Assembly: GCF_000504305.1 (NCBI RefSeq)
Contig: NZ_KI632512.1
Span: 1,067,250-1,131,249, forward strand
Reading direction: 5' to 3'
DNA: 64,000 nt
Source of the DNA: Nitratidesulfovibrio termitidis HI1
GTDB lineage: Bacteria > Desulfobacterota > Desulfovibrionia > Desulfovibrionales > Desulfovibrionaceae
The notes beneath the pieces were generated by a model. It ran no database searches and was not told where the DNA came from. It worked only from the letters and a program-made list of their open reading frames with translations. Made by a program: the position numbers and the translations under genes. This document shows, piece after piece, positions 3,525-64,000 of this stretch (its first letter is position 1; each line of letters begins with the position of its first letter).

Positions 3525-3603
3525 GGGGGTTGTTTCCAAAGCAGGACTTTCGTTCGCCGGCCACGATGCCAGCGGACGAAAGGCCGACCCGGAAACGGCC
3601 CCT
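3525..3603. repeat. Interspersed modular repeat, copy A (internally deleted)
   Basis: A short copy of the repeat family seen complete at 14433-14631 and 44142-44359. It keeps the outer inverted arms (GGGGGTTGTTTCC at 3525 and GGAAACGGCCCCTA at 3591-3604) and the next pair (CTTTCGTTCGCCGGC, then GCGGACGAAAGGCC), but the long central stems are missing. It fills the gap between accC and the fused carboxyltransferase gene. The stop codon of accC (TAG, complement of 3602-3604) is formed by its boundary. Confidence 0.7.
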
Positions 3604-5023
3604 AGAACTTCAGGATGCGCCCGGTGTTGTCCCGCAGGAACCGGACGTTGGAACGCAGCGGCTCGCCCGCGTTGTTGGCGCCTTCCAGCACCAGCGTGTC
3701 GAGGAATTCGACGCCGCGCTCCCTGGCTTCCGCAAGGTCCTTGCCCCAGATGATGGCCAGCGCCAGGTTGGGGTCGAACTCGGTGGGAATGTCGTAGGGG
3801 TCGTCGCTGGGCACGTGGGTGTGCATGGCCAGCCAGGGGCGTTCGGGCCAGCCGAAGCCGTCCACGCGGCCCACCCACGGGGTGAAGCGGTTGTCCGGGT
3901 CTTCGGCGATCAGGCGGTATTCCACGCCCACGCCCTCGAAGCTGATGTCCTCCTGCCCGTAGCCCAGCGGCTCGCCAAGGCCGATGCGGATCTGCTCGGC
4001 GATGATATCCACGCCCTTCTCGCCGCGCACGCGGGCGATGGTGGCGGACACGCCGTTCTCCACCTGGATGCGGGTATTCACTTCCATCAGGAAGGGGCGG
4101 CCGTCGCGGGTGACGATCCATTCCCAGGTGCCCACGTTGTCGTAGCCCACCTTGCGGGCCATGGCCAGCGAGTGCTGGGTGATGTCGCGCAGCACCTGGG
4201 CGGCGTCGAAACCGTATTCGATGGACGAAGGATCGAAACCGGGGGCGATCTCGATGCGCTTCTGAAGGCCGGTGGACTGGATGGAGCAGTTGCGGGTGCC
4301 GAAATGCACGGGGTTGCGCCCGCTGCGGTCGGACACCACCTGCACTTCCAGGTGGTTGAAGTCGCGGATGCGCTGCTCGATGAGCACGCCCTCGTCCTTG
4401 AACTGGCGCAGGGCATAGTTGCGGATGCGCCGGTACACGGAGCGGAAGAGGTCGATGTCGTACACCTCTTCGATGCCCATGCCGCCGCCGCCCGCCGATG
4501 CCTTGACCAGCACCAGCGGCTTGCGGATGCCCTGCTGTTCCTGGAATTCGAACAGGCTCTGGGCCACCTTTTCCGCTTCCATCTCGTCGTAGATGGGCCG
4601 GTCTGAACCGGGCACGGTGGGCACGCCCAGGCTGCGCGCGAGGCGCTTGGTATTGATCTTGTCGCCCAGTTCGCGGATTACCCGCCACGAAGGGCCGATG
4701 AAGATAAGCTTGCGGTCGCGCTGGGAAACGCGGCGGGCAAAGCGGTAGTCTTCGGCAAAAAAGCCATAGCCCGGATGCACGGCGGTGGCGCCCGCATCGT
4801 CTGCAACGGCCATGAGTTCGTTGGCATCATGATAGGAGGAGACGCGGCAGAGGCTCTTGTCGCCGCCCAGTTCGCGGGCAATGCGCACATGGCCCGACGC
4901 GGCGTCCTCCGCCGTGTACACGCACGTGAAAGCCAGGCCCAGCTTGCGGCAGGCCTGAACGATGCGAATGGCGATTTCCCCTCTGTTCGCCACCAGCACC
5001 TTATGGTCTTTCGTCTGCACCAA
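3602..5023 (-). CDS. accC: Biotin carboxylase, acetyl-CoA carboxylase subunit
   Basis: A 473-residue ATP-grasp enzyme that carboxylates biotin with bicarbonate and ATP. The N-terminal pre-ATP-grasp domain starts KVLVANRGEIAIRIV, and the conserved HPGYGFFAED follows. The glycine loop is ASAGGGGMGIEEV, and the active-site strand is EVNTRIQVENGVS. Most biotin carboxylases read VEH at this last place, so the VEN here is a departure, although the catalytic Glu, Asn and Arg are kept. It is slightly longer than the E. coli protein (449). It leads the minus-strand acc cluster and makes the malonyl-CoA used by FabD. Confidence 0.92.
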   Translation of the reverse strand: MVQTKDHKVLVANRGEIAIRIVQACRKLGLAFTCVYTAEDAASGHVRIARELGGDKSLCRVSSYHDANELMAVADDAGATAVHPGYGFFAEDYRFARRVSQRDRKLIFIGPSWRVIRELGDKINTKRLARSLGVPTVPGSDRPIYDEMEAEKVAQSLFEFQEQQGIRKPLVLVKASAGGGGMGIEEVYDIDLFRSVYRRIRNYALRQFKDEGVLIEQRIRDFNHLEVQVVSDRSGRNPVHFGTRNCSIQSTGLQKRIEIAPGFDPSSIEYGFDAAQVLRDITQHSLAMARKVGYDNVGTWEWIVTRDGRPFLMEVNTRIQVENGVSATIARVRGEKGVDIIAEQIRIGLGEPLGYGQEDISFEGVGVEYRLIAEDPDNRFTPWVGRVDGFGWPERPWLAMHTHVPSDDPYDIPTEFDPNLALAIIWGKDLAEARERGVEFLDTLVLEGANNAGEPLRSNVRFLRDNTGRILKF

Positions 5024-8219: not shown

Positions 8220-9076
8220 GGGGAGTGCGCTTTGCTGTTGGTCGCGATACGGGTGTTTAGCCATTCATGACAGGCTGTACTGTTTCGTAGTTTGGGCCGC
8301 CTCCGGCGTGGGGCAAGGGGCCGCATAGCGGCGGCCCCCTGCCAACCCCCGCGCTTCGGGGGGCAAAGCCCCCCGATCCCCCCGGCCTCTCCCGCCGCAT
8401 TCTTACGCCGGGCAGCTTCCCTGCGGCGCAGGCGCCTCCGGGCGATCTGCCCGGCTGAATGCGCATGCGCGCAACGCTCCCGTAGTTCTGGCAAAGGTCC
8501 AGGGCGTGCCTTTACCGTCGGTCGGTTCGCGGTGCACCCGCTACGCCGGAGCTTCCGCCGTCGCGAGGCCTCCGGCGGCGATCTCCGACGGCGGGCGCAA
8601 TCCGCACGGATTGTTTCGGCATTTAGAGGTAACGGGCGGCGTATGCCTCGCTACCATCAGCAACGGAGTATGGCTGCGCGCCTTCCGCCCTGACCACGCC
8701 GTGGGCCGGGCACAGCCATGCCCGCGCGCAGTGTTAAGGCAGTGGTTACTTCGTTTGAAGGCGCAACGCCCCACCAGCGCCCTGCGCATTGTGCCAGCCC
8801 CAGCCATCACCCGCCACCCCGCAGCTTTCCTTTATCATTCCAATCCGCCGACACACGCTTGCCACCCGGCACGTGTAGGTGTATGGATGCCGTCCGCGAC
8901 ACGCCGTATCCGGGTTCTGCCCCTCGCCGGGTCACCGCATGGGCACCGCGTTGTCGCCCCGCCCCGCCTCCCCGCCGCATGCGGGAACGCGTCTTCCCCC
9001 ACAAGCCACCAGCCGCGCCGGGCCAGAGGCCCTGCCCCGCCCGTGGCCGAAGCCCATCCCGCCAGGAGAATTTCCC
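8220..9076. other. 857-base gap before typA, palindrome-rich, no convincing gene
   Basis: No reading frame here has a ribosome site and a plausible protein. The first part holds GC-rich hairpins: GGGGCCGC with GCGGCCCC near 8318-8337, GGGGGGC with GCCCCCC near 8356-8376, and interleaved inverted repeats around 8540-8595 (CGCCGGAG/CCTCCGGCG and CCGCCGTC/GACGGCGG). The hairpin near 8318 may terminate the phosphorylase transcript. The rest up to typA shows nothing I can name and may include a long leader. Confidence 0.5.
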
Positions 9077-13205: not shown

Positions 13206-14435
13206 GTGACCCCCACCGATACCGACGTGCTGATTCTGGGGGCCGGAGCCTCCGGCCTGTTCTGCGCCATGACCGCCGCCGCGCGGGGCCGCCGCGTGAC
13301 GCTGGTGGACCACGCCCGCGCCACCGGGCGCAAGGTGCGCATCGCCGGTGGCGGCAAGTGCAACTTCACCAACCTGGAGATGCACGCCCGGCACTACGTG
13401 GGCGGCAACCCCCACTTTCCCAAGTCCGCCCTGGCCCGGCTTACCCCGTGGGACATGGTCAGCCTGGTGTCCGAAAACGCCATCGCCTGGGAAGAGCGCG
13501 AGCACGGGCAACTGTTCTGCCTGCGCTCCGCCGACGACGTGGCCGATCTGCTGGAACAACGTTGCCGTGCCGCGAACTGCCGCTTTCTGCTGGGCCAGCG
13601 CGTGGAAGCGGTGGAACACGACGGCGATGCCTTCGTGGTGACCATCGCCCCGGCGCAGGCTGCCGGAAGCGACGGTGACGGAAGCACGCAAGGGGATACC
13701 GGCACGACTACCCGGCTGCGCGCCGCATCGCTGGTGGTGGCCACGGGCAGCGCGGCCTGGCCGCAGATCGGGGCTACCGACATCGGCCACCGCATCGCCC
13801 GGCAGTTCGGGCACAAGGTGGCTCCGTCGCGCCCGGTGCTGGTACCGCTGACCATGGCCCCGCAGTGGCCGCTGCACGGCCTTGCGGGCATTGCCCTGCC
13901 CGCCCGCGTGACCACGGAAGGGGCATCGTTCACCCTGCCCCTGCTGTTCACCCACCGGGGCATCAGCGGACCGGCTGCCCTTCAGGCTTCCTGCTACTGG
14001 CAGCCCGGTCAGCCGTTGGAAATCGACTTTCTGCCCGGTGAAAACCTGGACGAACTGCTGCGCGCACCGGAACACGGCAAGCTGCTGGTGCGCACCCTGC
14101 TGGGCCGCCTGTTCCCTGACCGTCTGGCGGAACGGCTGGTGCCGCCCGATCTCGCGGGGCGCAAGATCGCCGAACTGTCCAGGGCCGCCCGCACCGCCCT
14201 GCACGAGGCCGTGCACGCCCACACCGCCGTACCCACTGGAACGGAGGGCATGCGCAAGGCGGAAGCCGCGGCGGGCGGCGTGCGCGTTGACCACATTTCC
14301 TCGCGCAGCATGGAAAGCGCGCTACGCCCCGGCCTGTTCTTTACCGGAGAAGTGCTGGACGTCACCGGACAGCTTGGCGGCTACAACCTGCATTGGGCCT
14401 GGGCCAGCGGCAAGGCCGCCGGAGAGGTGGCGTAG
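13206..14435 (+). CDS. HI0933/YhiN (BaiN) family FAD-dependent protein
   Basis: A 409-residue flavoprotein. It has an N-terminal Rossmann FAD loop (LILGAGASGLFCA) and then the family motif GRKVRIAGGGKCNFTN. A middle insert domain follows, and the C-terminal FAD motif ends FFTGEVLDVTGQLGGYNLHW. Family members are oxidoreductases, some acting on bile acids or similar; no substrate can be given here. The start is GTG at 13206 with no strong ribosome site. Residues about 155-175 are a Gly/Asp/Thr-rich insert. Its TAG stop is also the first three bases of repeat copy B. Confidence 0.88.
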   Translation: MTPTDTDVLILGAGASGLFCAMTAAARGRRVTLVDHARATGRKVRIAGGGKCNFTNLEMHARHYVGGNPHFPKSALARLTPWDMVSLVSENAIAWEEREHGQLFCLRSADDVADLLEQRCRAANCRFLLGQRVEAVEHDGDAFVVTIAPAQAAGSDGDGSTQGDTGTTTRLRAASLVVATGSAAWPQIGATDIGHRIARQFGHKVAPSRPVLVPLTMAPQWPLHGLAGIALPARVTTEGASFTLPLLFTHRGISGPAALQASCYWQPGQPLEIDFLPGENLDELLRAPEHGKLLVRTLLGRLFPDRLAERLVPPDLAGRKIAELSRAARTALHEAVHAHTAVPTGTEGMRKAEAAAGGVRVDHISSRSMESALRPGLFFTGEVLDVTGQLGGYNLHWAWASGKAAGEVA

Positions 14436-14631
14436 GGGCTGTTTCTAAATCTGCCTTTCGCCCGTTGGCTGCGTCAAATTTCGCCTGCCATATCGGTCGA
14501 ATACGACAAGAAGGCGTTGCTGTCCTCATCCGTAAGGCTCGAAGACTCGCCAACGGCTGACGCATACTCCCTCATGGCAGGCTCGGTTTCCTTGCCAACG
14601 AACGAAAATCCTGATTTTGAAACAGCCCCTA
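14433..14631. repeat. Interspersed modular repeat, copy B (complete)
   Basis: A 199-base element with terminal inverted repeats (TAGGGGCTGTTTCTAAAT at the left; ATTTTGAAACAGCCCCTA at the right). Read on the minus strand, the core has stem I GTTGGC/GCCAAC and stem II GCCTGCCAT/ATGGCAGGC. A second hairpin module (14530-14556, CCGTAAGGC to GCCAACGG) sits in the loop of stem II. TA flanks both ends. Removing the element with one TA would restore GCG-TAA, a normal stop for the flavoprotein gene. No coding capacity is present, so it resembles a MITE or a complex REP-type element. Confidence 0.8.
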
Positions 14632-44141: not shown

Positions 44142-44359
44142 TAGGGGCTGTTTCTAAATTAGGATTTTCGTTCGTTGGCGAGGAAAACGAGCCTGCCATG
44201 AGGGAATATACTCTTATCGTATTTGACCGACATGGCAGGCGAAGTTTGACCGCGTTGCGCACGATGCCCGTAAAACTCGCAAGCTCGCTTAACGGGCACG
44301 CTTCGCGCCCTTCGGGTCGGATGCCAACGGGCGAAAAGACAATTTAGAAACGGCCCCTA
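44142..44359. repeat. Interspersed modular repeat, copy C (complete, rearranged)
   Basis: A 218-base element. Ends are TAGGGGCTGTTTCTAAAT and ATTTAGAAACGGCCCCTA. Stem I is GTTGGC near 44173 with GCCAAC near 44322-44327, and stem II is GCCTGCCAT/ATGGCAGGC with a short loop. In contrast to copy B, the second hairpin module (CCCGTAAAAC...GCTTAACGGG, about 44269-44300) follows stem II instead of sitting in its loop, and reads in the opposite orientation. TA flanks both ends. The right boundary supplies the TAG stop of the cupin gene. Confidence 0.8.
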
Positions 44360-44674
44360 GATGGGAGGGGCGATAACGACGGTAACCCGCATCTCGGTCC
44401 TGGCCCGCACCCCGTGGGGCACGCGGATTTCCGAGACCAGCATGTCGCCCTGCTTCGCGGGGATGGCCGCGCCGTCCGCGCCGAGGAATTCGCCCTCGCC
44501 CTCGATGACGGTGATGGCCAGTTCGCCGTCGATGTCGTGGCTGTGCACGGGCAGTTCCTGCCCGGCCTTGAAGTTGAAATTGATGATCTTGAAGTTTTCC
44601 GAGTCGTGCACCAGATTCATGGCGAACCCGGCGTCCTTGAAGGTGCGCATGTCGTCGAGGCGGATGTGGCGCAT
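44357..44674 (-). CDS. Small cupin-domain protein
   Basis: A 105-residue single-domain cupin. The first metal motif is ELPVHSHDIDGELAITVIEG, with two histidines and a glutamate, and the second has a histidine in RVPHGVRA. The ligand is unknown; small cupins often bind a metal and a sugar or small acid. ATG at 44674 has GGAGAC upstream. The stop codon belongs to repeat copy C. If the element were removed at its TA, the frame would run about eight residues further. Confidence 0.82.
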   Translation of the reverse strand: MRHIRLDDMRTFKDAGFAMNLVHDSENFKIINFNFKAGQELPVHSHDIDGELAITVIEGEGEFLGADGAAIPAKQGDMLVSEIRVPHGVRARTEMRVTVVIAPPI

Positions 44675-49979: not shown

Positions 49980-50042
49980 AAACGGGGGAGCAGGGGGGCC
50001 TTGCCCCCTGCCCCAGGTTGTTGACAAAGCCTGCTTTTGGAC

Positions 50043-50130
50043 GCCTCCGGCGGCCAAGGACGGCAGCCGTTAGGCGAGCTTGCGAGCCTTACGGATGGCG
50101 ATCGCAACGCGGCTACCGCCCCTTGGAACC
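50043..50130. repeat. Composite repeat: hairpin module inserted in a GC palindrome
   Basis: The outer arms are GCCTCCGGCGGCCAAGG and CCTTGGAACCCC, the same repeat as the simple palindrome at about 48883-48920. In its loop lies the second module of the interspersed repeat family, hairpin CCGTTAGGC/GCCTTACGG (50069-50096), followed by GATGGCGATCGCAACGCGG. The module matches the one in copies B, C and D. Confidence 0.75.
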
Positions 50131-50364
50131 CCATGCTTTGTGATCTCGTAATGTCCAGGAAATACAAATGAAAGTTTTTGGGGGAGGGGGTACGGGGGAG
50201 GAGACCCTTTTTCAAAAGGGCCCCTCCCCCGCAAGAATTTAGGTTTGTCAGCAGTCTGGGAGCAGGGGGGCCTTGCCCCCTGCCCGCCGGAGGCTGATAA
50301 AAAACGAAGAGACCGCAGGCGGATTCCCCCGCAGCACGACGCACCGCAGGAAGAACCGCAGCCC

Positions 50365-63703: not shown

Positions 63704-63767
63704 TTGTGTGTGTACCTTTCGGCAGGCAGACAAAGGAGAGGCGCACCTGCATCTGCGCGCGGCAGTA

Positions 63768-63870
63768 TTTCCGTTTTCCGGCAAGGAAGACAAGCCCGCC
63801 ACGCAGGGCGCATACTCCGGCGTATGTAACCGGAGTGGCGGGCGCAGTCTGACGCAGCCGGAAACGGAAA
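63768..63870. repeat. Diverged relative of the modular repeat (element E)
   Basis: It has the same layout as the core of copies B and C, but with different stem bases. Stem I is TTCCGGC/GCCGGAA, and stem II is GCCCGCCAC/GTGGCGGGC. The intervening AAGGAAGACAAGCC and GACGCAGCC correspond to AAGGAAAACGAGCC and GACGCAGCC of copies B and D. The loop holds CATACTCC...GTATG. It lies 13 bases before copy D. Confidence 0.75.
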
Positions 63871-63883
63871 GACAACGCGCGCC

Positions 63884-64000
63884 AGGGGCTGCTTATAAAT
63901 TAGGTTTTTTGTTCGTTGGCAAGGAAAACGAGCCTGCCATGAGGGAGTATGCGGCAGCCGTTATGCGAGTCTTCGAGCATTACGGATGGCGACCGCATCG
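63884..64000. repeat. Interspersed modular repeat, copy D (partial, cut by window end)
   Basis: It begins AGGGGCTGCTTATAAATTAG. GTTGGCAAGG and GCCTGCCAT follow, then the second module CCGTTATGC/GCATTACGG (63957-63984) and GATGGCGACCGCA. The arrangement, with the second module inside the stem II loop, is that of copy B. The left flank is CA rather than TA. Confidence 0.78.

Follow-up and report, generated by a model that had tools for sequence, protein, structure and literature searches.

BOX elements are intergenic long hairpins. ERIC, YPAL and Correia/NEMIS sequences are of the same kind, are thought to be non-autonomous mobile elements and stand nearest in size and form to the repeat described here; Correia elements also come with optional internal inserts (107/155 bp) (PMC2229807). 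However, ERIC and Correia have target duplications and TA ends, and YPAL has duplications of 3 to 26 bp (PMC2229807), and none of these families, BOX included, is described as lying exactly on stop codons with locus-specific complementary ends. GTAG REPs are high-copy palindromes at the 3′ ends of genes that often supply the TAG (PMC3733652), and likewise our repeat lies at a gene 3′ end with the TAG supplied by its own end, a combination typical of the REP/RAYT group, in 60 of 67 copies. GTAG REPs are, however, 20 to 40 nt long and linked to RAYT (PMC3733652), whereas the element here measures 145 to 330 nt, carries no GTAG tag and resides in a genome without a RAYT gene.

Three further systems come from closer by. 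The Chunjie MITE of Geobacter uraniireducens, a member of the same phylum, is 235 bp long, exists in many copies and was found inserted in an operon; it is described as having conserved terminal inverted repeats and direct repeats, unlike the element here (PMC10969869). The 2009 genome paper of G. metallireducens contains a 24-copy "predicted short RNA element" (Gmet_R1) with the central palindrome GRCGTAGCGCTGCTACGCC and reports Gmet_R1-like sequences in G. sulfurreducens, G. uraniireducens and Desulfotalea psychrophila (PMC2700814). Gmet_R1 is multicopy and intergenic, as is our element; the main text presents it as short RNAs that lie, for example, in the 5′ regions of genes, and makes no mention of mobility, stop-codon anchoring, strand or modules (PMC2700814). 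The palindrome GRCGTAGCGCTGCTACGCC recurs exactly, on the gene strand and at the same position of the fold, inside one of our elements (L271), the other members having related hairpins, and therefore, the family has probably been glimpsed before: to judge from the sequences, the element and Gmet_R1 are probably the same family. The first-pass annotation of this DNA could not match the repeat to a named family, a statement that can be improved upon in this respect. Finally, the Desulfotalea-1 motif, which takes its name from a sulfate reducer, is a candidate structured RNA given as a table entry only, with no Rfam number and with "?" as its RNA status (Weinberg et al. 2010, PMC2864571); it may be the same element.

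The window analyzed here is a stretch of 64,000 nucleotides (G000:C1:1067250-1131249) of the complete 4.26-Mb chromosome of Nitratidesulfovibrio termitidis HI1 (G000). The search for the element's ends through the whole genome, suggested in the first-pass annotation, together with local mapping yielded at least 67 copies with both ends; this count is a lower bound, as 37 to 40 candidates were scored per search, with fragments coming in addition. The shortest complete form has 149 nt. The element folds into one long branched hairpin, composed of the stems P1 to P4 with conserved, purine-rich internal loops between them and of two small hairpins, P5 and P6, inside. P1, previously taken as a terminal inverted repeat, comprises 19 bp and is followed by the internal loop AGGA/GAC; P2 has 15 bp and is followed by AAGGA opposite GACG; P3 has 4 bp (AAAC/GTTT) and is followed by GA/GAA; and P4 has 9 bp (GCCTGCCAT/ATGGCAGGC). 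P5 reads GAG-TATA-CTC, and P6, clearer in relatives, reads CGGT-ATTCG-ACCG. A subfamily in genome G015 (L136, L148) has the same P1, P2 and loops and a different P4-P6 core. Isolated ends and collapsed mini-hairpins were found at G000 1338941, 1596869, 2464445, 3964002 and 4210651, several of them still at gene ends, as if old copies shrank to P1.

Three fixed points can hold an optional hairpin module: M1 (~52 nt) in the loop of P5, M2 (~51 nt) 3′ of P6 and M3 (~70 nt) between P3 and P2. All eight possible combinations occur among the 67 copies, with no module in 19, M1 in 10, M2 in 3, M3 in 4, M1M2 in 12, M1M3 in 4, M2M3 in 4 and all three in 11. Module content differs in place between species at sites E1, E4, E5 and E6 and at copy C. 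Modules of ~50 nt also stand alone at the tip of some other hairpin, terminator-like hairpins among them (G000 443461-443517 and 3225503-3225647; an M1-type module on the plus strand at window positions 50061..50110, at the tip of a CCAAGG/CCTTGG hairpin); judging from this, the modules appear to be a small repeat in its own right, with the loops of hairpins as its target.

All four copies (A to D) that had been noticed in the window were found as described: the shared 18-base end has five matches and the core motif AAGGAAAACGAGCCTGCCAT three, against 0.01 expected by shuffling in both cases, and the predicted stem II, GCCTGCCAT/ATGGCAGGC, was recovered in copies B and C. What had escaped the first reading is that the exact edges of the copies are stop codons of neighboring genes; its orientation also needed correction, as copy B, on the minus strand, runs opposite to C and D. 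Copy A (3525..3604, plus strand) is shortened to P1 and P2, the inner P3-P6 being deleted, and its 3′ end, CTA, is the stop codon TAG (3602-3604) of a minus-strand gene of the biotin carboxylase type (3602..5020; Pfam Biotin_carb_N, 1.3e-31). The same site is occupied in three related species, with the pairing partly decayed. Copy B (14433..14631) is a full element with module M1 (14513..14564, minus strand); its folded strand is the minus strand, with the 3′ end at 14433, and its last three nucleotides are identical with the TAG (14433..14435) of a plus-strand gene for an HI0933-like flavoprotein (13206-14435), whose Pfam match reaches residue 407 of 409. Four relatives have an empty site here, with TAG in three of them and TAA in the other; in a fifth relative, a truncated end is present. 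Copy C (44142..44359, plus strand) carries an M3 hairpin of ~69-71 nt (44250..44318, plus strand), which is absent from the same site in relatives, and ends on the TAG (44357-44359) of a minus-strand gene of the cupin family (44357..44674; Pfam). Its site is occupied in four species, with M3 in G000 only; two of them (G001 and G006) have the 149-nt form without M3, and one (G004) has a different, complementary P1. Copy D (63883..64000, plus strand), with module M1, continues for 81 nt beyond the window (G000 1131132-1131331), and its anchoring stop codon lies beyond the window end, at d=-3. Immediately before it is a diverged fifth copy, D0 (about 63756..63882, plus strand), with a P1 of the GCGCGC type and the conserved loops retained. 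The window also holds other repeats: a family of ~300 bp at 8300-8611, with 75 to 81% identity and many copies in all genus members, and a further palindromic family at 50020-50260, in which GGACGCCTCCGGCGGCCAAGG...CCCCTTGGAACCCC and AGGGGGCCTTGCCCCCT hairpins recur, as they do upstream of G000 2746362.

The paired changes were scored over 54 pairs in 27 copies from the genus, aligned plainly with MAFFT and not fitted to the structure. In this alignment, 94.8% of cells pair, and 23 of the 54 pairs are changed on both sides, compared to 6.0±1.8 after shuffling, while slid structures give 6 to 8 such pairs. Across families, double changes were seen in 46 of 54 pairs (234 cells versus 71.7±6.9), in an alignment that is model-made and leans towards the structure. 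For P1 alone, 16 of 19 pairs in the genus and 19 of 19 across families are changed on both sides, and swapping of the P1 arms among the 67 copies lowered the number of pairs from 997 to 849.7±9.9 (maximum of 882 in 2000 permutations). A further alignment, A3, was kept out of the main evidence; it contains matches of the same palindromes on both strands. The ratio of G·U to A·C on the oriented strand is 136:14 in the genus and 103:24 in other families, indicating that one single strand is the folded one; the fold energy as RNA is −87.5 kcal/mol for this strand versus −69.1 kcal/mol for the opposite strand. T·G wobbles are retained at three P2 pairs (in 41, 56 and 61 of 67 copies). The ends, which vary and covary, are less conserved than the interior, and in distant members conservation is highest at the bases of the unpaired purine loops. 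These data show that compensatory changes maintain the fold and that they do so on one particular strand. The earlier suggestion of a selected folded form is supported in that a folded single strand is conserved, with stems covarying well beyond chance.

With a covariance model, the element was detected in all 8 genus genomes, in 39 of 149 family genomes (14 of 44 genera), the wider search among Desulfovibrionaceae that had been proposed at the outset, and, in a sample of 395 genomes from the phylum, which holds sulfate- and metal-reducing bacteria, in 45, many other families among them. The distant examples fetched have the same architecture and have kept the loops; their P1 and P4 are unrelated in sequence. 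Exact-pattern matches identified, among others, Nitratidesulfovibrio liaohensis, N. oxamicus, Desulfovibrio sp. A2 and D. cuneatus as carriers. The Rfam search, likewise proposed, gave no relevant match at the gathering threshold or at E<=1 (genus; 20 distant loci), and plasmid and phage collections contained no similar sequence. Tandem arrays exist, with five units at L201 1501-2247, only the last of which has a fully complementary P1, and two at L149 1355-1630. In other families (L267, L272, L273, L278-L281), a hairpin CATCCGGAAACTCCGGATG followed by AGAAACTA lies directly 5′ of P1, and the GAAACTA of this unit repeats the element's own 3′ end.

The oriented element ends in ...GCCCCTA at its 3′ side, and the gene on that side is on the opposite strand, ending there or further on, in 62 of 67 copies. 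Gene calls in G000 are uncurated and started from position-specific base use, safeguarded by agreement with Pfam ends (three window genes) and with the C-termini of relatives. A stop codon lies between −12 and +7 nt from the 3′ end in 60 of 67 copies, and in 48 of 67 it is the element's last three bases (to within a base); at the other end, a stop codon is found within 7 nt in only 1 of 67 copies. If stop-codon and intergenic TAG/TAA were equally good targets, the probability of 48 out of 67 would be about 7e-21. The 60 anchoring stops are TAG in 51, TAA in 6 and TGA in 3 cases, compared to 140 TAG, 83 TGA and 42 TAA in element-free genes (Fisher p = 2e-6). On the gene strand, the base before TAG is C in 27, G in 18, T in 18 and A in 4 copies. 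The anchoring genes are functionally unrelated. Outside the genus, where an antisense ORF of at least 90 aa was required, 30 of 46 copies have the stop of such an ORF within 6 nt, compared to 4 of 46 at the other end.

Orthologous regions of related species, fetched and aligned, revealed filled and empty sites, in support of the first-pass view of an interspersed, non-coding and apparently mobile element. At E3 (G000 2263790-2263938), one of the few copies off stop codons, two species have a clean 147-bp insert and five relatives are empty with a perfect junction; nothing was lost or duplicated on insertion. At E1 (G000 2259086-2259234), two species are filled, and the five empty ones keep the same TAG, from which the intergenic sequence runs straight on. 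E4 (G000 3229851-3230096) is also filled in two species, with the TAG retained in five empty sites. No target duplication was found at E1 and E3, where the insert is the sole difference between a filled and an empty site. Since the empty sites at E1, E4 and B still have a stop codon there, the stop codon predates the element and the end of the protein is unchanged. Thus, at the cleanest sites insertion is shown to be exact and free of target duplication, and at E1 it follows a pre-existing stop codon. Copies are gained and lost fast between close species at the same genes. Elements common to two species have 96 to 99% identity compared to 87 to 97% in the non-gene flanks (the pairs are partly non-independent), which suggests constraint or conversion between copies. 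Two known types of targeting were considered and set aside: an IS5-type target (CTAG/TA), as the base before TAG is not fixed and no TA duplication is present, and an IS608-like lagging-strand bias, as the co-direction of 50 of 74 copies is explained by the orientation bias of genes.

Taken together, we consider it moderately probable from these comparisons that the repeat is a mobile, non-coding, folded-strand element that is spread in trans to TAG or TAA and whose modules are swapped in place. The active form would be one folded single strand, DNA or RNA. It would spread via a single-stranded, folded intermediate. An enzyme supplied in trans would handle this intermediate, recognize the hairpin and join it next to a TAG or TAA without duplication; joining at this position would leave the host gene intact. 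The modules would represent a second small hairpin repeat that enters the loops of hairpins; copies would acquire it, lose it or exchange it with one another in place. Spread of a folded strand is favored because it agrees with three observations: the two strands are asymmetric, insertion leaves no duplication and the ends are conserved in structure only. The choice of stop codons may come about because the machinery meets DNA or RNA at the ends of translation or transcription or because only functional copies survive there. A more far-reaching version, to which we incline somewhat less than to its opposite, is that of a phylum-wide class of mobile elements that targets stop codons as such and carries interchangeable, loop-targeting cassettes. 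The folded single strand would be inserted directly after a pre-existing TAG or TAA, free of duplication, by an enzyme that may be coupled to translation termination or to transcript ends. We know of nothing that explains the recognition of stop codons as such. Among known mobilizers, RAYT, reverse transcriptases and TnpB/IscB were rejected, their domains being absent from G000 or from most genus genomes: the complete genome G000 gave 0 matches to the Y1 transposase (PF01797), of which the genus has fragments only, the TnpB/IscB-type C-terminal domain (PF07282) is absent from 8 of 8 genus genomes and the reverse transcriptase (RVT_1) from 6 of 8. Integron attC sites and HEARO/omega-RNA were also considered and dropped, as R boxes and cognate genes are lacking.

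Long inverted repeats are prone to template switching, and paired changes could thus be unselected products of palindrome correction or of gene conversion between copies. Modules do move in place between copies, but correction would erase internal loops and wobbles, whereas the purine loops are the best conserved bases, the P2 wobbles are kept and distant families retain the loops despite entirely different stems; we regard this explanation as improbable. Slightly less probable still is a MITE in the classical sense, in which a DDE transposase supplied in trans would act on the terminal inverted repeats of a deleted insertion sequence and so move it. Inverted ends, a length of 150 to 330 bp, the lack of coding capacity, many copies and clean empty sites would all suit the MITE label given in the first-pass annotation. 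Against it, the terminal repeats are less conserved than the interior and change freely yet stay complementary, leaving no fixed transposase site, and the interior is conserved across families whose ends are unrelated. Furthermore, the cleanest insertions, E1 and E3, are without target duplication, and no longer, full-length element with these ends was among the matches fetched from the genome. The REP-like alternative named alongside it holds as an analogy only. REPs of the GTAG type, for which a Y1 tyrosine transposase is the mobilizer, also accumulate at the ends of genes and often provide the TAG (PMC3733652), both repeats are palindromes, and the absence of target duplication here is in line with this mode of movement; the size is nevertheless wrong (145 to 330 nt, not 20 to 40), a GTAG tag is missing with a mixed base before TAG, and Y1_Tnp is absent from the complete genome, with fragments only in the genus. 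Membership in the REP/RAYT group is the least probable of the explanations weighed here. By the tests made, the element is outside the classical MITE and REP/RAYT families.

The main rival is a role in translation termination: selection would hold the hairpin exactly at the stop codon as a cis-acting RNA element that affects translation termination, the stability of the mRNA 3′ end or the next gene of the operon. We regard it as unlikely, though with a chance well above that of the other alternatives. It would account for the exact stop-codon placement across the whole phylum and for the better conservation, relative to non-gene flanks, of elements common to two species. Ribosome stalling is reported for REPs that lie within 15 nt of stop codons (PMC12306157), and the G. 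metallireducens paper reports a Geobacter short RNA copy with the same dapAB-dapL position in two species (PMC2700814). On the other hand, at one and the same gene the element comes and goes fast among close species, and the functions of the genes are unrelated. The better-folding strand is also antisense to the anchoring gene, in view of which a function in that gene's own mRNA is still compatible with the strand test. We regard the element as a real, structured, mobile and precisely placed small interspersed repeat, with a serious chance that its targeting principle is new.

Known small bacterial repeats favor gene ends only loosely. Here, the edge of the element is the stop codon itself in most copies and across many families of one phylum, and we can name no known mobile element for which stop codons in general are the target. 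The finding would, therefore, point either to a new targeting mechanism or to a new role of RNA structure at translation termination, and both readings are directly testable because of the folded strand, the conserved loops and the in-place changes of modules. In addition, the Geobacter "short RNA" of 2009 is tied, probably as a member, to a far larger family without an Rfam entry.
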